Source: Halorussus halophilus (GTDB lineage: Archaea > Halobacteriota > Halobacteria > Halobacteriales > Haladaptataceae). From it: 64,000 nucleotides of DNA. Positions 37,474 to 47,769 of the stretch are shown here, piece by piece. Numbering within the stretch: the stretch's first letter is position 1; each line of letters starts with the position of its first letter. A program made the position numbers and the translations under genes. Location of the stretch: contig NZ_CP044525.1 of the NCBI RefSeq assembly GCF_008831545.1, positions 124,001-188,000 on the forward strand, written 5' to 3'. A model generated the notes under the pieces. That model was given only the letters and a program-made list of their open reading frames with translations, was not told the DNA's origin and ran no database searches.

Positions 37474-38970
37474 GTGGCCATCGTCGAAGGACTGACGCAG
37501 GCAATCGACATTATTACGTCAGGACAGACGCCATTGTGGATACTACTCGGTGTGTTATTGGGTATCTTCTTCGGGGCACTCCCCGGTATTGGAGCGACGC
37601 TTGGGATGGCTATCGTTCTTCCACTCACGTTACCGCTCGGCGGAGCGGATGCAATCATTCTGCTCATCAGTATCTACAGTGGTGCGATGTATGGCGGTAG
37701 CATTCCAGCGATACTCGTCAACGTCCCCGGCACAGCAGGTGATGCAGCAACGACGTTCGAAGGGTATCCATTAGCGAGGAAGGGACGAGCAATCGACGCC
37801 CTCACGGTATCTGCGCTATCGTCGGCAATCGGAGGCGTCCTCGCGGTTATCGCACTCATCGCTATCTCGCCGGTGATGGTCGAACTCGTATTGTTGTTCG
37901 GGTCACCACAGTACTTCCTGATGGCGATTCTCGGCCTGTCGATGATTACGGTCATCACGCAGGGTTCGACTGTCAAAGGTATCACGGCGGGGGCATTCGG
38001 CCTGCTACTAGCGACTGTCGGCGTCGCGCCATCCGTGCCGATACAACGGTATACGTTCGACCGGTTGGCGCTCTACGATGGTCTGAACTACGTTGCGATT
38101 CTCATCGGACTGTTCGCCATCGCGGAGATGATTAGTCTCTCCGAAGAAGAGCAGGTCGCACAGTCCGAGACTGGACTGGAAGGAAGCGTGTTCTCCGGTA
38201 TTCGGAAGACGATCACGTACTGGGTGACGCTCCTGAAGTCGGCATTCCTCGGACTCGTCATCGGGGCCGTGCCGGGGTCCGGTGCATCAATTTCGAACTT
38301 CATCGCGTACGGTGAGGCGATGCGGTCTTCGAAGACGCCAGAGAAGTTCGGGAACGGGACCGAAGAGGGAATCGTCGCTACCGACTCGGCAAACAACGGG
38401 ACCGTGGCTGGGTCGCTCATTCCGACGCTCTCGTTCGGTATCCCCGGAAGTGGGTCGACGGCCGTCCTCCTCGGTGGATTGATAATGCACGGACTACGAC
38501 CGGGGCCAGACCTGTTCACGTCACAGATTGGAATTACGTACAGTGTCTTCCTCGCGCTGTTGTTCGGGAATCTCATCATCCTCTTCGTCGGCCTCATAGT
38601 TGTGCCACGAACGGGCTATCTGACGCAAGTGGATACGGACCTCATCATTCCAGTCATCGTCGTTCTCTCGTCGCTCGGCGCGCTCGCGCTCCGCAACAAC
38701 TGGGTGGACGTTTGGACGATTATCGTGCTCGGCATGGTGGGGTACTTCATGAAGAAGTATAACTATTCGATTATCGCGTTCGTTCTTGGCGCGATTCTCG
38801 GCCCGATTGCTGAGGAGAACCTCTATCGGTCGTTGTCGATTTCGGGAGGATCGTTCTCCATTTTCCTGACTGACCCGCTTTCGTTGGTGTTGGTCGTGTT
38901 GACTATCGTAATACTGGCTGGTCCGTATCTCAAGACGAAGATTGCGGAGATTCGGGCGGGAACGACGTAG
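37474..38970 (+). CDS. tctA: Tripartite tricarboxylate transporter large subunit TctA
   Basis: A 498-residue membrane protein with about 10-12 helices. TctA signatures are clear: GIFFGALPGIGATLGMAIVLPLT, YGGSIPAILVNVPGTAGDAATTFEGYPLA, GAVPGSGASISNFIAYGEA and the second-half PTLSFGIPGSGSTAVLLGGL. The start is GTG at 37474, one base after the TctB stop. It moves a carboxylate captured by TctC, driven by an ion gradient. Confidence 0.95.
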   Translation: MAIVEGLTQAIDIITSGQTPLWILLGVLLGIFFGALPGIGATLGMAIVLPLTLPLGGADAIILLISIYSGAMYGGSIPAILVNVPGTAGDAATTFEGYPLARKGRAIDALTVSALSSAIGGVLAVIALIAISPVMVELVLLFGSPQYFLMAILGLSMITVITQGSTVKGITAGAFGLLLATVGVAPSVPIQRYTFDRLALYDGLNYVAILIGLFAIAEMISLSEEEQVAQSETGLEGSVFSGIRKTITYWVTLLKSAFLGLVIGAVPGSGASISNFIAYGEAMRSSKTPEKFGNGTEEGIVATDSANNGTVAGSLIPTLSFGIPGSGSTAVLLGGLIMHGLRPGPDLFTSQIGITYSVFLALLFGNLIILFVGLIVVPRTGYLTQVDTDLIIPVIVVLSSLGALALRNNWVDVWTIIVLGMVGYFMKKYNYSIIAFVLGAILGPIAEENLYRSLSISGGSFSIFLTDPLSLVLVVLTIVILAGPYLKTKIAEIRAGTT

Positions 38971-39142
38971 AGTAGAGCGGCTAGTCGCTTTTCGGGAGAG
39001 CTGACTTTCTTCTTGAGCAGCTATCGCTTGTTGTTCGATGGCTGTGGTAGTGCAGGAAAGGGCTGCTACTTATGCGGTTTCCAGAACTATATGAATAAAT
39101 CAAGAAAATTATTAATAATGGTGGATTGTGGTCTCTATAGTC

Positions 39143-40231
39143 ATGTCGGGCAAGCCGAACAGACGAGAGTTCCTCAAATACGCAGGCACGGCATCCGCGG
39201 CGACGACGTTTGGGTTGACGGGGTATGCACGGGGACAAGAAACGACTACCGAATCGGGCGAAGAAACAACTGAAGGCGGCCAAGAGACGACATTCACGCC
39301 AGTCGATCAGAACTATCCGGAGTCCGGGCAGACGATTACGTACATCGTCCCGTTCAGCGAAGGCGGGGGGACAGACACCTATGCCCGCCAAATCATGCCG
39401 GTGGCGGCAGAAGAACTCGGCGGAGTGAACGTCCAAATCAGCAACGTTCCCGGCGGAGCGTCGTTGCGTGGAACGGGCAGAATCGTGAACGCGGAAGGTG
39501 ACGGCTACACGATGGGGGCCTTCAACCCACCATCGACACCATTGTCGTACCTCGTGTTCGAACCAAACTACGACCTGACCAACGTCGAAGGCATCTGTTC
39601 GTACGCTCGAACGCCGTACGTCATCATCGCAAACGCGGACGCGAACGTCGAGAACATGGACGACCTCATCGGACGCTACGAAAGCGGCGAGTTCCAAGCG
39701 TTCGGCGGCTGTCAAGCCAGAGGTGGCCTGAACCACGTCGCCTCGCTCGTGATGAAAAACCAGTACGGGATGCAGTGGCAGAACTACGTCGGCTACGACG
39801 GCTGTGCCCCAGCAGCACAAGCGGTCGCCTCCGGGGAGATTCCGGCGTCCATCGGTTCAGACTTAGCAGTCGAAGGCACTGTCAACTCCGGTCGGGCAAA
39901 CGTCGTCGCTGTGCTGATGAGCGGCGGGAGCGGCGTCTTCCCGGACGTTGCACCCGTCACCGAGCAGGGCTATGAGAACATCGACTACATCGGGGGACTC
40001 AACCGCTGTATGTGGTTCCCACCAGGCACCGACGAGGGGAAAGTCAATCGGATGGCAAACGCCGTCCAAGCGGCGACCCAGTCCGAGCAAGTCCAGCAAT
40101 GGTCCGAAGAGTCAGGTAACCTCGTCGAGTTCAACGGGCCGGAGTACGCGAACCAACTGCTTCAAGATACGTTGGAGATACTCCCGGAGCAAGTCGACAT
40201 CGAACAGATCCGCGAAGAGGCCACCGGGTAA
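39143..40231 (+). CDS. tctC: Tripartite tricarboxylate transporter binding protein TctC
   Basis: A 362-residue binding protein. A twin-arginine signal (PNRREFLKYAGTASAA) leads to a cleavage region near ARGQ; no lipobox cysteine is present, so it is probably secreted or held by its partners. The mature protein starts with a Thr/Glu/Gly-rich linker, then the TctC core (ITYIVPFSEGGGTDTYARQIMP, YVIIANADANVENMDDLI). ATG 39143 fits the signal; the earlier frame start at 39128 does not. An AT-rich spacer of 172 bases separates it from TctA and may hold a promoter. Confidence 0.9.
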   Translation: MSGKPNRREFLKYAGTASAATTFGLTGYARGQETTTESGEETTEGGQETTFTPVDQNYPESGQTITYIVPFSEGGGTDTYARQIMPVAAEELGGVNVQISNVPGGASLRGTGRIVNAEGDGYTMGAFNPPSTPLSYLVFEPNYDLTNVEGICSYARTPYVIIANADANVENMDDLIGRYESGEFQAFGGCQARGGLNHVASLVMKNQYGMQWQNYVGYDGCAPAAQAVASGEIPASIGSDLAVEGTVNSGRANVVAVLMSGGSGVFPDVAPVTEQGYENIDYIGGLNRCMWFPPGTDEGKVNRMANAVQAATQSEQVQQWSEESGNLVEFNGPEYANQLLQDTLEILPEQVDIEQIREEATG

Positions 40232-41184: not shown

Positions 41185-41828
41185 GCGCTCTTTTTTAGGT
41201 GATGAATCGAGATGGTGGATTGATTACTTCAGTGTGGCACCGTTGACAGATGACAGCCTTCTTATAAATATTCGGGGTGTTCACATGTTCCTCATCCAAA
41301 CGAGTTCTTTCGGTTGGGCACTACTCATCAATTACACTCTATGACATTTATTCTATTATTTCATTTTCCTCCTTATATATGGGGGCATATTCATTTATAG
41401 GGCATGATTGTGCAGATAGTGGTCATATACGCAAATATAACCTCGTTTTATATAGAAACGCCTATCAAATTCCACGATAGGAGAATTTACTTTTGCCCAA
41501 TCGCCTTTTAACCTATAGAAAACGAGAAAATCGTCTGTATCAAAAGTTAGATTGAACTCAAAGGAAGTTTTCTCACGTCACACTACTACCTGGAGGGGAG
41601 AAATCACTCCGGGAGGTCCAAAATTCTCGTTCAGAAAGTACGTAAGTCACCCACGACTAAAACCGTGGGCTTCCGACTTGAAATTCATGCGAACTAACCT
41701 AAACTAACTATATGGGGACAAGTCCGTACAGGTGTACGAAATAAAGTGAGCGTATCGATCAGCGATGGATGAGGAAGACACGAGTGTTCGTCAACGCGTT
41801 CATACCTCTCTCCATCCTATACAATTCT
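41185..41828. other. AT-rich gap with a solitary transposon-type hairpin
   Basis: The 644 bases are much richer in A and T than the flanking genes, especially 41330-41560. No ORF longer than 80 codons looks coding. The only structured parts are the hairpin at 41644-41679 and an imperfect GGAG/CTCC repeat near 41592-41620. The composition and hairpin suggest a scar of mobile DNA between the transport region and the metal-resistance block. Confidence 0.55.
41644..41679. repeat. IS200/IS605-type terminal hairpin, solo
   Basis: CCCACG-actaaaac-CGTGGG forms a 6-bp stem (41650-41669), and AAGTC (41644) pairs with GACTT (41675). The GTGGGCTTCC context is the usual end of haloarchaeal IS200/IS605-family elements. 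No tnpA or tnpB lies within several kilobases. Confidence 0.55.
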
Positions 41829-42590
41829 ATGCGTGAACTCGTCTTCGCTCTTGAATACACGCCGGGCACCAACGCCGTAGCCGACATCCTCACCTCGAAC
41901 CCGGAGACGAAGATTCGTTCCCTCTCCTGCCACGTCTCCGCCGAAAATCTCTGGCGCGTCGATTACGTCACCGGTGGGCAAAGCGCACTCGACGAACTCA
42001 CCGAAACCGTCACCAACGCCGAATACTACACGGACTGTCTGGCCCGCCGTGACTGCGAAGCCGACTGGGAAACCCAAGTCATCGACCGGACCGACGACGC
42101 ACTCGTCCTCTACTCCTACTGGTCACGCACACCTTCCTGTACCTCCATTCCCCACCTCGCACTCGACCACTTCGGCAACGGTCTCATCTTCCAAACGACG
42201 TGGGTCGGACACCGCTACGAGTGGCGTATCATCGCGCCCGACGACACTTCCTACCACGCCTTCCGCGACGCCATCGAGAACGAAATCGACGACACCACCG
42301 GTGTCACATTCGTCCGGGTCGGCGACGCGGACGACGCCACCCCGGACGACGCCACCCCGGACGACGGCGACTCTTCGCTGACACCTGAACAGGATGCCGC
42401 TATGCGGGCCGCCGTCGAACACGGCTACTACCGGACGCCCCGCGAAATCGAAACCTACGAACTCGCCGAGAAACTCGGTATTCCGGGCTCGACGCTCTCA
42501 TACCGACTCCGCCGTGCTGAAGCGCAACTGGCCGAAAACTACGCTACCGAACACTCACCGCCCGCCAATCTCTCCCCACCCGACACCTAG
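41829..42590 (+). CDS. HTH-10 family regulator, probably of the metal ATPase
   Basis: A 253-residue regulator. The N-terminal sensor (about 1-165) contains several cysteines and histidines (SLSCHVSAENLW, CLARRDCEADW, PSCTSIPHLALDHF) that could bind metal. A short Asp/Thr/Pro repeat (DDATPDDATPDD) links to the HTH-10 domain (AAVEHGYYRTPREIETYELAEKLGIP, then STLSYRLRRAEAQ). ATG 41829 starts at a beta strand; ATG 41769 is less likely. It lies 78 bases upstream of a heavy-metal P-type ATPase on the same strand, an arrangement that suggests metal-responsive control. Confidence 0.88.
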   Translation: MRELVFALEYTPGTNAVADILTSNPETKIRSLSCHVSAENLWRVDYVTGGQSALDELTETVTNAEYYTDCLARRDCEADWETQVIDRTDDALVLYSYWSRTPSCTSIPHLALDHFGNGLIFQTTWVGHRYEWRIIAPDDTSYHAFRDAIENEIDDTTGVTFVRVGDADDATPDDATPDDGDSSLTPEQDAAMRAAVEHGYYRTPREIETYELAEKLGIPGSTLSYRLRRAEAQLAENYATEHSPPANLSPPDT

Positions 42591-42667: not shown

Positions 42668-45229
42668 ATGAGTACGAACGCACCCGGTTCGGAGGACTTC
42701 GAATCCCGGACCGTGAAACTCGACGTGCCAGGGATGGACTGTCCCTCATGCGCGGAGAAGATAGTCAACAGCGTCTCCGAACGTGACGGCGTCGTCTCGG
42801 TCGAACCGCAGGTGATGACCGGCACCGTTCATATCGAGTATCTTCCCGAGAAAGTCGCGGTGGATTCGCTCGTCGAACACGTGCAGGCCGCTGGCTACGA
42901 TGTCGAATCACGCGACGACCTCCGGACCGAACGGTTCGACGTGCCTACGATGGACTGTGCGTCCTGTGCAGGCAAGATTGAGAACGCACTCGACGCAATC
43001 GCTGGGATTCAGGAACGCGAGACGATCCCGACGACCGGCACCGTCATCGTCACCTACGACCCCGAACAGACTTCTCTCGCCGACCTCGCCACCACAATCG
43101 AGAGTGCGGGCTACGCCGTCGAAGAGACTGCCACTGACACAGCAGAGGAAGACCTCGTGGAGGGGAACCGGGCACGAGACGTGTGGTGGAGTCCGCGCGC
43201 GCTCAAGACGTGGCTCGGTGGGGGTTTACTACTCGTCGGCCTCGCACTGGAGTTCCTGTTCTCGGGGTTCGACGTGACGCTCACCACGTTCCTCGGGCGA
43301 GAGTTCGCCGCCGCCGAGTTGTTCTACTTAGTCGGCGCACTGGTTAGCGGCGAGCAAATCCTCCGGAACGGCTACTACTCCGCCCGTACGCGGTCATTAG
43401 ACATCGACCTGCTGATGAGTCTCGGTATTCTCGGCGCGATCACTGCCAGCGTCGTCTTCGGTGAATCACTTTATCTCGAAGCCGGGATGCTCGCCGTGCT
43501 GTTCAGCATCGCCGAGTTGATGGAGGAGTACGCAATGGATCGCGCCCGCTCCTCGCTCCGCGAACTGGTGGACCTTTCGCCGACGACCGCAACTGTTCGC
43601 AGGGATGGTGAGGAGACGACCGTCCCAGTGGAGGAACTGCGCGTCGGTGACCGCGTCATCGTGCGTCCCGGCGACCGCATCCCCGCCGATGGCACGGTCG
43701 TCGAGGGCGAAAGCGCGGTCAATCAGGCACCGATCACGGGCGAGAGCGTACCCGTGGACAAGACGGACGGCGACGAGGTGTACGCCGGAACCATCAACGA
43801 GGAAGGCTATCTCGAAGTGGAGGTTACGACGGCGGCTGAAGACAGCACGCTCGCCCGAATTATCGAACTGGTCGAAGACGCACAGCGCGACAAGACCGAC
43901 CACGAACAGTTCGTGGACCGCTTCGCTGGTCAGTACACACCGGTAGTGGTCACGCTGGCGGTCCTCACTGCTGCAGTACCGCCACTCCTCATCGACGGTG
44001 CGGTGTCGCTCGGCCTCGGTGGTCAGACGTTCGTGTTCGCTGGCGACTGGGCGACGTGGTTCAAGCGCGGACTGGCACTCCTCGTGCTCGCCTGTCCGTG
44101 TGCGCTGGTCATCAGCACGCCTGTCAGCGTCGTCTCCGGCATCACGAGTGCCGCGAAGAATGGTGTCCTGATCAAGGGTGGCACGCACCTCGAATCAGTT
44201 GGGACGGTGAAGGCCGTTGCATTCGACAAGACGGGGACGCTCACACATGGCGAACTCACAGTCACCGACGTCGTGCCCGCGAATGGTGAGTCCCGAGCGT
44301 CGGTGCTATCCGTTGCGGCGAGTCTGGAGGCGCGCAGCGAACACCCTATCGCGGAAGCAATAGTGGAGGCCGCCGATGAGACGGATGTCGAGACCAACGA
44401 TGTCTCCGCGTTCGAGAGCCTGACTGGAAAGGGTGTGCGGGCTGACTTGGACGGTGAGACGTACTTCGCAGGGAAGCCCGCGCTGTTTGAAGAACTGGGT
44501 CTCTTGCTCGACACCGTCCGTGTCGCGTCCGATGGTGGCGTTGCAGTCGAAGATTCCAGCAGTCACGATACCCCCGATGCTGGTGATGAGACGATTAAAG
44601 ACTTGCAGGCCGACGGGAAGACCGTCATTCTCGTCGGAACGGTGGATCGAATCGTGGGTGTCGTCGCGGTGGCAGACGAGGTTCGCCCGGAGGCGAAGCG
44701 GGCGGTCGAACGACTACACGATCTCGGTGTCGAGCATGTCGTGATGCTGACCGGCGACAACGAGGTGACGGCACGAGCGGTCGGTGAGGCAGCAGGGGTC
44801 GATGAGGTACGGGCTGCGTTGCTGCCCGAGGAGAAGGCCGAGACTGTGGCCGAACTCAACGAAGAGTTCGGCGGTGTAATCATGGTTGGTGATGGCATCA
44901 ACGACGCGCCGGCACTTGCGACGGCAACAGTCGGAGTAGCGATGGGTGCGGCGGGGACGGACACGGCGGTCGAGTCGGCGGATGTCGCGCTAATGGGTGA
45001 CGATTTGTCGAAACTACCGTATCTCTACGCAATGTCGGGGAAAGCGAACAGTGTCATTCGGGAGAACATCTGGGTGAGTGTCGGCGTCAAAGCACTGTTG
45101 GCGGTGGGCGTCCCCTTCGGGTTGGTTAACGTCGCCGTCGCCGTCATCGTAGGCGACATGGGGATGAGCCTTGGCGTGACAACGAACGCACTCCGACTGG
45201 CGAGAATCAAGCCCGACAGTTTCGAGTAG
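42668..45229 (+). CDS. Heavy-metal P1B-type ATPase with two HMA domains
   Basis: An 853-residue metal exporter. Two N-terminal HMA domains carry MDCPSC (C25, C28) and MDCASC (C97, C100). Then come membrane helices, the TGES loop, the CPC metal site (C476-P-C478), the phosphorylation motif DKTGTLT (D520), SEHPIAEAI, and GDGINDAP (D742). The end (KALLAVGVPFGLVNVAVAVIVGDMGMS) resembles the Zn/Cd/Pb group (ZntA) more than Cu exporters, whose last helices carry MxxSS. Export of Zn2+, Cd2+ or Pb2+ is the best guess. The HTH-10 gene upstream is its likely regulator. Confidence 0.93.
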   Translation: MSTNAPGSEDFESRTVKLDVPGMDCPSCAEKIVNSVSERDGVVSVEPQVMTGTVHIEYLPEKVAVDSLVEHVQAAGYDVESRDDLRTERFDVPTMDCASCAGKIENALDAIAGIQERETIPTTGTVIVTYDPEQTSLADLATTIESAGYAVEETATDTAEEDLVEGNRARDVWWSPRALKTWLGGGLLLVGLALEFLFSGFDVTLTTFLGREFAAAELFYLVGALVSGEQILRNGYYSARTRSLDIDLLMSLGILGAITASVVFGESLYLEAGMLAVLFSIAELMEEYAMDRARSSLRELVDLSPTTATVRRDGEETTVPVEELRVGDRVIVRPGDRIPADGTVVEGESAVNQAPITGESVPVDKTDGDEVYAGTINEEGYLEVEVTTAAEDSTLARIIELVEDAQRDKTDHEQFVDRFAGQYTPVVVTLAVLTAAVPPLLIDGAVSLGLGGQTFVFAGDWATWFKRGLALLVLACPCALVISTPVSVVSGITSAAKNGVLIKGGTHLESVGTVKAVAFDKTGTLTHGELTVTDVVPANGESRASVLSVAASLEARSEHPIAEAIVEAADETDVETNDVSAFESLTGKGVRADLDGETYFAGKPALFEELGLLLDTVRVASDGGVAVEDSSSHDTPDAGDETIKDLQADGKTVILVGTVDRIVGVVAVADEVRPEAKRAVERLHDLGVEHVVMLTGDNEVTARAVGEAAGVDEVRAALLPEEKAETVAELNEEFGGVIMVGDGINDAPALATATVGVAMGAAGTDTAVESADVALMGDDLSKLPYLYAMSGKANSVIRENIWVSVGVKALLAVGVPFGLVNVAVAVIVGDMGMSLGVTTNALRLARIKPDSFE

Positions 45230-45297: not shown

Positions 45298-45636
45298 CTA
45301 CGCAGACTCGGCGTCTAGTCGGTCGACCAGTCCATCGCGGAACAGCTGTCGAGTTCCCTCTGGGCCAGTGATGGTCAACACAGTTTCCTCGTACGGCGGT
45401 GTGACCGTTATCTCGTACTCAGCGAACGCACAACACTGCAATTCCGAGGACGTGAACTGCGCAACCGCGAGAAGCGATTCGTCAGTTCCATCGAACCGAA
45501 CGGCCAGACCATCTTCAGTCTCCTCGAATCCGAGGTAGTGGGAGACAAGTCGAGACTGGACTTCCTTACTCCGCTCTCGCTCCTGTTCTTCGGTCAGCGT
45601 ACATACAACCTCCCGCGAGGAGTCTTTCTGACTCAT
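45298..45636 (-). CDS. Small cysteine-pair protein linked to the MerB-like gene
   Basis: A 112-residue protein without membrane segments. The one striking feature is the CC pair in SSELQCCAFAEYEI, followed by a beta-rich half. Similar short CC proteins occur in mercury and arsenic clusters, but I cannot name the family with certainty. Its start overlaps the stop of the MerB-like gene by four bases, so the two are co-translated and probably act on the same metal. Confidence 0.75.
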   Translation of the reverse strand: MSQKDSSREVVCTLTEEQERERSKEVQSRLVSHYLGFEETEDGLAVRFDGTDESLLAVAQFTSSELQCCAFAEYEITVTPPYEETVLTITGPEGTRQLFRDGLVDRLDAESA

Positions 45637-46292
45637 TCTGCAGCCTCCGTCGGGGACGACGCCGTCAGGGCAGCGGCGATAGGCATGCTCGAGTCGAGCG
45701 GGATTCCGACCGTTGTGGCAGCCACGTCTGCCGCCCAGCGTTCGTAGTCCGCACGAGTTTGGAACGCCTTCACGTACGGACAGACGGCCCCGTAGACGTC
45801 CTGTGCAGTCGGATCATCGTCAGCAGGGACCTCGTGGTCAGTAGCTATACCGAAGGACATGACCGCATCCGGTGGCGTGACGTTGATCTTGCTCCCCGGG
45901 GAGACTTGCAGCTGGATCAAAGTATTCGTGGGAGTGTTCGTCTGGATTTCGACCGGTTCGTCCACGAGATGCGCCAAGGCGATACCGTCGTAGAAGCACC
46001 GGAAGTAGTACGTCTCGTCGGCCGTCTTCGCGGAGTGTGGTGTTTCCCCCTCGACGTGACAGAGTTCATCGACGGCGATTCCATCTCCATCGACCACGGT
46101 CCGGAACGCCGAAATCATATCGTCGAACGTCTCGATCGATTCGTCGAAGAACCGACTCATGTTGTCTGCCATGTCTTCTGGGAGTTGTGCTGTCTCGACG
46201 GCCTGCCCTGCAATCCAGCTGCCTGAACCTGTCGTCCGTTCGTCTGTCTGATCAAACGTCAGTTTGGCGCAATTGCAGCTTTCGTCCAACAT
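45633..46292 (-). CDS. Organomercurial lyase (MerB)-like protein
   Basis: A 219-residue protein. Residues 92-185 match the alkylmercury lyase core: C99 and D102 in FRCFYDG correspond to the C96/D99 pair of bacterial MerB with the same spacing, and C171 in AVCPYVKAF to C159. MerB cleaves carbon-mercury bonds using these residues. The N-terminus has an extra CxC motif (DESCNCAKL), not part of the classic enzyme. A catalytic role is supported by the full triad; activity on other organometals is possible. No mercuric reductase gene lies in the window. It is divergent from the HxlR regulator. Confidence 0.75.
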   Translation of the reverse strand: MLDESCNCAKLTFDQTDERTTGSGSWIAGQAVETAQLPEDMADNMSRFFDESIETFDDMISAFRTVVDGDGIAVDELCHVEGETPHSAKTADETYYFRCFYDGIALAHLVDEPVEIQTNTPTNTLIQLQVSPGSKINVTPPDAVMSFGIATDHEVPADDDPTAQDVYGAVCPYVKAFQTRADYERWAADVAATTVGIPLDSSMPIAAALTASSPTEAAE

Positions 46293-46311
46293 ACACCATT
46301 ACCTTCAATAG

Positions 46312-46345
46312 CGAAGTATTAATACTGTCAAGTCCGAAGTATTGG
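46312..46345. promoter_or_regulatory. Operator-like repeats between the MerB-like and HxlR genes
   Basis: AGTATTAATACT at 46315-46326 is a perfect 12-bp palindrome. CGAAGTATT occurs at 46312 and again at 46335, 23 bp apart. The cluster lies 20 bp before the MerB-like start and 24-57 bp before the HxlR start, so it overlaps both promoters and is well placed for control by the HxlR protein. Confidence 0.55.
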
Positions 46346-46368
46346 AGTAAGTGCGGTGCGTGAAAGCT

Positions 46369-46734
46369 ATGGCAGAAACACCCGACACGTCCCCTGACGG
46401 TCCAGACCGACAGAACACCGATATCAACTGCTACTGTCCACTTGGTGGTGTGATGGAACTCCTCAGTCGGCAGTACGCGATGCAAGTGATTTGTGTCGTC
46501 GGCGCCATCGGGCCAGCCAGATACGGGACGATCGAAGAGACGCTCGGCGAGGTGAGTAGTTCGACGCTGTCGAGTCGCCTCGATGACCTCGTCGAAGCGG
46601 GCTTGCTCTCCCGGGAACAGTACAACGAAATTCCGCCCCGCGTCGAATACGAACTCACCGAAACGGGCGACGAACTCCGCGAACGACTCGATCCGCTCCT
46701 CGAATGGGCAGACGAACAGGACGACTCCGTCTAA
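46369..46734 (+). CDS. HxlR-family winged-helix regulator
   Basis: A 121-residue regulator of normal HxlR length. It opens with the family hallmark cysteine region (INCYCPLGGVMELLSRQYAMQVICVVG) and has the winged helix STLSSRLDDLVEAGLLSREQYNEIPPRVEYELTETG. Cysteines 19 and 21 or nearby could sense metal or oxidation. ATG 46369 (MAETPDTS) is preferred to the earlier frame start at 46351. It is divergent from the MerB-like gene and converges with the BASS-type exporter, three bases apart. Control of the metal genes is inferred from position. Confidence 0.88.
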   Translation: MAETPDTSPDGPDRQNTDINCYCPLGGVMELLSRQYAMQVICVVGAIGPARYGTIEETLGEVSSSTLSSRLDDLVEAGLLSREQYNEIPPRVEYELTETGDELRERLDPLLEWADEQDDSV

Positions 46735-46737
46735 CGC

Positions 46738-47661
46738 TCACTTAGGACGGCTGAACCATTTCGCGAGTCCGGCACTCGTCGTCATCTCTACGATTCCGAA
46801 AATGACGGCCGGAAGAGTAGCTACCGTCGGGAACCCCGCGCCGACGAGCAGGGCGGCAGCGACGGCGAAGTCCCGCATGCCAATCGACAGCGTCGCGGCA
46901 ATCCGCTCGTCTCGAGTAAAGTTCCAGCTGACGAGCCAACCAGTAACGTAGCCACTACAATTGAGAGCGACCGCGCCGGCCGCGACAAGGACGAGAACGC
47001 TCCCGCCATCACGAACGAGCGAAGCGTTCGCCGCCGCGACGATACCGATGATGAGTATCACCATGAGCCCAGACACCGAGGGATAGACATCGTCGTACTG
47101 GCCGATGCGGTCTGGCCACCGATAGCGAGCCCCGACTGCGAGCGTCATCGGAACGACCACCGCGAGCAACAACTGTTCGACAATGAGTACCGAATCGACT
47201 GTGACTGACTCCCCGAGAAACAGGGTGACGACTCCTGGGACGAACACGAGTGTTCCGAGACCAACAACGACGAGAACCACCGTCGAAAGCGCGGTGTCGC
47301 CCCCACTGAGCTCGGTCATCGTCGGCGTCACGAGTTCGGGCGTCACCGCGCCAAGAACCACGAACCCGGCTGTGAGCGCGGGACTGAGACCAAGTGCCCG
47401 GGCGATGGCGAACGCGAGCAGCGGCATGCCGGTCTGAACGACGAGAATTACGAGCAAGGCCCGACCGCGGAGTTGGCGGAATTGGTCGGGCGAAAGCGTC
47501 AGTGAGACCGCGCCGATCATGATGGCGAGAATCGGCGTCGACAGTGGCGTGAGTACGACTATCGAGGGAACGAGTAGCCCGACGGCGACCGATATTAGCA
47601 CCCAGACCAGCAGATAGTCGTCGACGAGAGCTGCGGCACGAGTCACGACGCAGTCCGCCAT
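46738..47661 (-). CDS. BASS/ACR3-fold transporter
   Basis: A 307-residue membrane protein with about ten helices of the bile-acid:sodium symporter superfamily, which also includes the arsenite exporter ACR3. Key pieces are LTLSPDQFRQLRGR after helix 2-3, LGAVTPELVTPTMTELSGGDTALS (an asymmetric binding loop), and SWNFTRDERIAATLSIGMRDFAVAAALLV. The 'TLSIGMRDFAVA' motif is BASS-like; the ACR3 cysteine motif is not seen. ATG 47661 was chosen over 47745, which adds a basic extension. The substrate could be an organic anion or metal oxyanion. Confidence 0.8.
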   Translation of the reverse strand: MADCVVTRAAALVDDYLLVWVLISVAVGLLVPSIVVLTPLSTPILAIMIGAVSLTLSPDQFRQLRGRALLVILVVQTGMPLLAFAIARALGLSPALTAGFVVLGAVTPELVTPTMTELSGGDTALSTVVLVVVGLGTLVFVPGVVTLFLGESVTVDSVLIVEQLLLAVVVPMTLAVGARYRWPDRIGQYDDVYPSVSGLMVILIIGIVAAANASLVRDGGSVLVLVAAGAVALNCSGYVTGWLVSWNFTRDERIAATLSIGMRDFAVAAALLVGAGFPTVATLPAVIFGIVEMTTSAGLAKWFSRPK

Positions 47662-47769
47662 TGATGATGTGATTCGTTCATCCGTAGTTTGGTTGCTTAT
47701 TCGTTTCTGTTGGCGAGCAACCCCTATAGCCACCGCGAAACCCATGACATCTTAACAGAACCTGTATAC

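Follow-up and report, generated by a model that had tools for sequence, protein, structure and literature searches.

A MerB-family lyase, a three-cysteine protein and an HxlR regulator in Halorussus halophilus: a candidate MerA-independent organomercury detoxification regulon

What becomes of the metal when an organomercurial lyase works in a cell that has no mercuric reductase? In the classical model, MerA is the partner that receives Hg(II) from MerB. MerA was nonetheless found to be lacking in 906 of 1795 MerB-bearing genomes (Christakis et al. 2021, PMC8261052), and the passages of that paper on MerA-less genomes pose the fate of the freed Hg(II) as a question and discuss non-mer reduction and sequestration by thiols or sulphide. 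The locus described here raises the same question in the haloarchaeon Halorussus halophilus. It lies in a stretch of 64,000 nucleotides (the window) on a 219-kb contig of a 4.45-Mb genome that is assembled in 4 contigs and is 99.98% complete. Within the window, a gene for a MerB-family lyase adjoins one for a small cysteine-containing protein (the CC protein) and is divergent from one for an HxlR-family regulator. Our preferred reading, to which we assign a probability of roughly 0.48, is a MerA-independent organomercury detoxification regulon composed of an HxlR sensor, MerB and CC.

The MerB-family lyase and the missing reductase

The lyase gene (positions 45633-46292, minus strand) encodes 219 residues and matches the MerB family model PF03243 (E 3.3e-15; 56.6 bits against a cut-off of 27). 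Its scores fall below the cut-offs of the NCBIfam MerB models (43.2 against 193 bits and 37.7 against 200 bits), and we therefore describe it as a MerB-family protein and not as a curated-equivalog MerB. The protein has cysteines at positions 6, 8, 78, 99 and 171, in addition to D102. A reading made from the letters of the window alone (the sequence-only reading) had proposed that C99, D102 and C171 (codons 45996-45998, 45987-45989 and 45780-45782, minus strand) fit the MerB active site, and the proposal held: in alignment A7 these residues share columns with the catalytic Cys96, Asp99 and Cys159 of MerB, and in an alignment of 69 MerB proteins, 67 haloarchaeal and 2 actinobacterial, they are kept in 67, 67 and 69 rows, respectively. 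Deviations at catalytic columns come from L107, a fragment, and from L105, a divergent protein. The N-terminal CxC, which the same reading had picked out as a special feature, turned out to be common among haloarchaeal MerBs, with a cysteine at position 6 in 38 and at position 8 in 48 of the 69 rows; C78 is kept in 62. The window MerB thus shares with the MerB of the mer operon (R831b MerB, PDB 3F0O and relatives) its family, the C-x-x-D motif, the second catalytic cysteine and the predicted fold, and differs in having the N-terminal CxC and Cys78 and in lacking a cysteine at 117. The column of R831b Cys117 is occupied by Thr120 in alignment A7, which places the protein in the '117alt' type. 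Cys117 is structural and is the fourth MerB signature used by Christakis et al., who call the '117alt' class untested in the relevant part of their paper (PMC8261052).

Structure prediction points the same way. The AlphaFold model of the window MerB, built from a nine-row alignment, has a low mean pLDDT (62.7); confidence rises to about 79-80 in the blocks that hold C99, D102 and C171 and drops below 50 in residues 151-170. With this model as the query, the best nine Foldseek matches were all MerB (E 3.6e-6 to 5.3e-5), and VIA-align 2 superposed it on eight MerB entries with Z scores of 9.6-13.6 (rmsd 3.0-4.7, 119-151 residues aligned), the first non-MerB match being NosL at Z 4.5. A sequence search of the PDB with the protein gave no match at E 0.001, and a search of viral contigs for MerB relatives gave one pattern stretch, which was not confirmed. 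Taken together, the family score, the conserved catalytic columns and the fold match make the MerB identity well supported, and by family, residues and predicted fold the protein looks like a genuine organomercurial lyase.

A second kind of MerB-like protein offers a comparison. SaoL, reportedly described by Haft and Gwadz in 2023 (as cited in PMC13188914), is said to be the MerB-like organometallic lyase of the SAO system. What it has in common with the window MerB is that both are MerB-like lyases outside classical mer operons. The two differ in that the SaoL model NF040728 did not match the window MerB in searches with limits of E 1, where filters drop most matches above 0.1, and of 0.05.

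That no mercuric reductase is visible had been remarked for the window, and the genome as a whole agrees. No protein passes the cut-off of the MerA model TIGR02053 (best 360 bits against 454), and the C-terminal cysteine pair is absent from each of the three best MerA-like matches. Among the haloarchaea, 58 of 391 genomes have a MerB match (57 of them above the cut-off) and 54 have a strong MerA match (E <=1e-120; 52 over the cut-off). Of the MerB genomes, 53/58 are without a strong MerA match (odds ratio 0.55, not significant). The proposition that MerB and MerA travel together in haloarchaea was rejected on these counts, since a strong MerA match accompanies MerB in just 5/58.

The HxlR regulator and its 21-bp operator

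The regulator gene (46369-46734, plus strand) is divergent from MerB and matches PF01638 with 69.8 bits (cut-off 20.8), so that, as first proposed, a divergent HxlR shares the MerB promoter. Its reading frame opens at a GTG at 46351; a likelier start is Met7 of that frame (ATG, 46369), which at least 90% of 52 homologues share. In addition to winged-helix membership of its family, the protein has a C-x-C...C pattern of its own, kept nearly without exception in the homologues (C27 and C29 in 52/52, C48 in 51/52; 127-residue numbering), and an operator linked to MerB and CC. In comparison with the classical mer operon, an HxlR here takes the place of MerR beside merB, and the genome has no merA. 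HxlR proteins are known as thiol or electrophile sensors. To our knowledge, the members characterised so far sense electrophiles or disulphide stress and not metals.

Between the two genes, at 46322-46342, lies a 21-bp operator, ATACTGTCAAGTCCGAAGTAT, with inverted arms ATACT/AGTAT and no assigned strand. Its distance is 29 nt to the start of MerB and 26 nt to the likely start of HxlR, and it overlaps TATTAATA, a TATA-like element of MerB; a site so placed, between divergent genes and over a TATA-like element, suits a repressor. The promoter upstream of HxlR is similar across many MerB and CC loci. A perfect 12-bp palindrome beside the operator, AGTATTAATACT, is exact in the window only among 21 regions and was not counted as an operator.

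The distribution of this operator supports a link between the genes. The genome of H. halophilus holds a single site at up to 3 mismatches. The 391 haloarchaeal genomes contain 26 sites with at most 2 mismatches, against 0 in the control; these are spread over 20 genomes and 18 genera, and each of the 26 has a MerB or CC match no more than 775 bp away. This genome-wide scan is the unbiased test; a further scan covered 84 haloarchaeal regions (1.03 Mb) that had been preselected for MerB or CC, and there 57 sites have 5 or fewer mismatches, compared with 2 in reversed sequence. It is present in 46 of the 52 regions with a recognised HxlR (at least 60 bits) and in 1 of the 32 without, counts in which the regions are not independent of one another. 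By target, it is found in 36 of the 67 regions with MerB and in 20 of the 25 with CC, with nine regions counted in both and a 26th CC region (L202), whose CC is an unrecognised scrap, standing outside the CC counts. Where a region holds MerB and CC apart from each other, the operator is found at both (8/8: L055, L058, L060, L061, L084, L093, L098 and L106). In two genomes with MerB and CC in different regions it marks only one of them, the MerB region in G003 and the CC region in G285. The shared operator, with 26/26 sites at MerB or CC loci, supports the view that MerB, CC and HxlR form a unit.

These results also weigh on a plainer explanation, in which the locus is what remains of an ordinary broad-spectrum mer system: a plasmid-acquired MerB with accessory genes, whose Hg(II) binds to bulk thiols or is reduced by an enzyme from outside the mer system, and to which operator and CC add little. 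The MerB contig is possibly a plasmid, and the share of MerB-bearing genomes that lack MerA, about half in the survey passages of PMC8261052, would fit such an origin. Conservation of the operator (at most 2 mismatches) and of the HxlR cysteines over 18 genera and several gene orders is unexpected of a remnant, and we regard this explanation as very improbable.

The CC family and its neighbours

The CC gene (45298-45636, minus strand) encodes 112 residues with cysteines C12, C68 and C69, and the overlap with MerB noted at the outset is real, 4 nt at the MerB stop codon being common to both reading frames. It matches no Pfam, NCBIfam (limit E 1), PADLOC or PHROGs (0.01) model. Relatives identified by tblastn, some with weak E-values, come from haloarchaea, Actinomycetota, Bacteroidota and Bacillota and are found on plasmids; a further search added weak matches in Alphaproteobacteria (E about 1e-3), and a search of viral contigs gave 24 pattern stretches, of which 0 were confirmed. 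The relatives have the motif C...E..CC in common. C12, E65, C68 and C69 are invariant in alignments A2 (15 rows) and A3 (17 rows), and F71 is invariant in A3, which leaves out A2 rows L117 and L121, and variable in A2. C12 is also invariant in the larger alignment A6 (49 rows), for which 48 of 68 cut CC domains were drawn and the sole one without the first cysteine, L239, was left out; the conservation of E..CC in A6 is uninformative because its actinobacterial rows were picked by an EQxCC pattern and trimmed by the CC motif.

A structural model of CC made from A6 reaches a mean pLDDT of 89.2. With it, Foldseek returned no match at E 0.001, and a search of the PDB with the CC profile returned none at E 1. 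Kinship with the C-terminal domain of ArgR, to which VIA aligned the model with Z 9.2 (rmsd 3.5, 83 residues aligned, 6% identity), was considered and not adopted; the likeness of the predicted folds may reflect a common arrangement.

CC stands alone in haloarchaea and Bacillota, is fused to a MerR regulator in actinobacteria and is fused to the methyltransferase ArsM in two haloarchaea. In view of the bacterial members, the idea of an archaeal invention was rejected. The suggestion that the locus is a distinct archaeal unit survives in part: the shared operator supports a unit of MerB, CC and HxlR, and its parts are not purely archaeal, since CC occurs in bacteria, there fused to MerR.

Among the 391 haloarchaeal genomes, CC occurs in 25, more often where MerB is also present (11 of the 58 genomes with MerB and 14 of the 333 without; odds ratio 5.3, p 2.6e-4, relatedness ignored). 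It lies within about 6 kb of MerB in 9 of 67 MerB regions, in at least three gene orders, and the MerBs so linked are mostly of one group (8 of 9 best matches). Two of these nine CC genes look broken, being split or truncated (L060:4604-5092(-) and L061:5261-5476(-)). Elsewhere in the L061 genome there is another CC, which is intact and has an operator of its own. Since 58 of the 67 MerB regions lack CC and 28 lack HxlR and the operator, CC is not required for a haloarchaeal MerB.

The frequent absence of CC from MerB regions fits a rival explanation, a regulon for soft-metal stress in general, in which one thiol sensor switches MerB and CC independently and CC is a passive thiol scavenger instead of an acceptor of mercury from MerB. 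The same operator stands before MerB alone, CC alone and CC-ArsM, 16 of the 25 recognised-CC regions are without MerB, and the known role of HxlR proteins as thiol or electrophile sensors agrees with this explanation. Thiol sequestration is, moreover, among the MerA-free mechanisms discussed in the corresponding passages of PMC8261052. It fits less well that CC overlaps MerB in the window and adjoins it in L061, though there with its own operator, that the two co-occur across genomes, and that CC keeps a fixed set of residues and not merely a loose cysteine-rich composition. We consider this broader explanation unlikely.

A transporter of the SBF/BASS family (46738-47745, minus strand; PF01758, 53.4 bits) is a recurrent CC neighbour. 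BASS matches occur in 6 of the 9 MerB regions with CC and in 1 of the 58 without, so that in haloarchaea BASS goes with CC rather than with MerB. The 25 CC genomes have a mean of 2.0 SBF genes, and in 9 of the 25 one lies within 3 kb of CC; G297 (L061, L187), with a BASS beside CC in the region data, is absent from this genome-wide list, the pieces being short. The operator scans found no copy upstream of the BASS gene in the window, and its part in export is therefore an association only.

Other genes also occur near MerB. A DoxX-like membrane protein is encoded between MerB and HxlR in L055, L058, L060, L084, L093, L098, L110 and L122; in L110 and L122 its gene overlaps merB by 4 nt and occupies the position that CC has in the window. 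A genome holds 6.7 P1B ATPases on average, and 10 MerB regions have an ATPase nearby, six of them from two genera. In these six (L064, L067, L082, L085, L088 and L089) MerB lies near P1B ATPases without HxlR, CC or operator, possibly another MerA-free arrangement.

From a genome scan we examined the best 80 of 148 confirmed CC loci (L204-L283), ranked by likeness to a Rhodococcus domain; to judge by their record titles all 80 are actinobacterial, and some of these loci end at contig ends. CC is fused to a MerR regulator in 72 of these 80 best loci. Within 2.5 kb after CC there is a BASS gene in 26/80, YnfA in 20/80 and neither in 34/80, and the fetched flank holds ACR3 or ArsC in 12/80 and a MerB with C-x-x-D in 9/80, a count that leaves out L280 (a match to the thioredoxin-like domain only) and L234 (a gene in pieces, with no C-x-x-D). 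MerA queries matched in 3/80, with the C-terminal cysteine pair in L259 only. Within 900 nt downstream, 30 of the same best 80 encode a membrane protein whose CC..P motif is MerT-like. Nine of ten such proteins weakly match MerT/MerF-type NCBIfam models (E <=0.05; best 24.8 against 375 bits), two of the nine looking identical in sequence, and Pfam placed MerT or MerC below the cut-off in 5 of 8 tried; it is mainly the motif that suggests a MerT-like protein. These operons (L112, L119, L220 and others) share with the window the CC domain, the transporter superfamily and, in some, nearby MerB or arsenic genes, and differ from it in the fusion of CC to the regulator, in having MerR for HxlR and in the MerT-like protein.

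The bacterial company of CC is at least as close to arsenic as to mercury, and the domain links mercury and arsenic gene islands across archaea and bacteria. A rival reading has the regulon respond to arsenic or an organoarsenical instead of mercury: HxlR would sense trivalent arsenic, CC would be a chaperone that passes arsenic to ArsM or an ACR3-like exporter, and the substrate of the MerB homologue would be an organoarsenical or mixed organometal. The two haloarchaeal CC-ArsM fusions, with CC at the N-terminus (L197:5071-6330(-) and L198:5140-6327(-); NF008823, 334.7 and 337.1 bits against a cut-off of 263), speak for this, as both loci have an HxlR, and the 21-bp operator recurs there, with 3 mismatches, some 40 nt upstream; fusions under that operator mean that the signal may be arsenic or soft metals at large. 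CC also lies beside ACR3, ArsC, ArsR, ArsN or ArsO genes in Adhaeribacter, Cytobacillus, Rhodococcus and Streptomyces plasmids, and two bacterial BASS proteins weakly match the ACR3 model (41.0 and 46.3 against 282.8 bits). Around the haloarchaeal MerBs, however, arsenic genes are scarce, with ArsR in 3 of 67 regions (L059, L086 and L090), ArsC in 1/67 and ACR3 in 0/67 by few query proteins. The flanking methyltransferases might suggest an arsenic role of MerB, but with ArsM queries they reach only 23-56 bits and the fusions 193-196, and this argument was rejected. The complete catalytic columns of MerB and the MerT-like motif proteins that follow CC in the actinobacterial set likewise favour mercury, and we know of no MerB that cleaves a C-As bond. 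On balance we hold an arsenic-centred regulon to be doubtful. Two actinobacterial MerBs situated among arsenic genes (L119:7115-8083(+) and L220:8146-9147(+)) have an N-terminal thioredoxin-like domain, with a DF-family seleno match below the cut-off.

A proposed route for the freed metal

In the MerA-independent organomercury regulon that we prefer, an HxlR with three near-invariant cysteines would control MerB and/or CC genes through its dedicated 21-bp operator. This link of sensor, operator and target is the best supported part of the reading. We infer repression and ligand alike: the cysteines of HxlR would bind Hg(II), an organomercurial or some other thiophilic metal(loid), which would release the repressor. 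MerB would then protonolyse the C-Hg bond and be left with Hg(II) on C99/C171, a predicted chemistry that the family strongly supports. CC, to judge from its cysteines and gene company, would take over the Hg(II) with C12, C68 and C69. The metal might perhaps not be reduced to Hg(0) but leave through a neighbouring pump, either the BASS protein at 46738-47745 or a P1B ATPase at 42668-45229, a step that we suggest only weakly. As a more far-reaching proposal, which we put forward tentatively and would not call probable, CC would be a new cross-domain family of three-cysteine domains that handle mercury or arsenic and, in the HxlR-ruled haloarchaeal regulon, would replace MerA as the acceptor of the MerB product, to give a complete MerA-free organomercury route.

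Parts of this picture are already known, namely MerB itself, MerA-less MerB genomes and the thiol sequestration discussed for them. The passages on MerA-less genomes in PMC8261052 share with our locus a MerB without MerA and contain no MerB-linked three-cysteine protein, which the window has in CC; the term HxlR has 0 occurrences in the main text of that paper. A literature search, made mostly outside subscription papers, gave no account of the CC family, the HxlR operator or an HxlR-MerB regulon, and the 21-bp operator, the CC family and their link to MerB are, in the literature searched, new here. A conserved and co-regulated CC, a candidate metal sensor from the unexpected HxlR family and a 21-bp operator make the question of Hg(II) fate directly testable in genetically tractable haloarchaea, and the unit of MerB, CC and HxlR offers a testable answer to how MerA-less organisms cope, in which CC may take the freed metal.

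Further along the window, the P1B-type metal ATPase (42668-45229, plus strand) is convergent with CC, has two HMA domains and scores 588.9 bits against TIGR01525, above the cut-off. Its sequence contains CPC and DMG motifs, which we take to be of the type of Zn/Cd/Pb pumps. Adjacency is its link to MerB and CC, and we regard it as only a neighbour. Upstream of the ATPase, an HVO_2928-type HTH_10 regulator (41769-42590, plus strand; PF24281, 187.3 bits; PF04967, 54.7 bits) probably goes with it and not with MerB and CC. Genes for TctA and TctC of a tripartite tricarboxylate transporter lie upstream of the cluster at 37474-38970 and 39128-40231 (plus strand).
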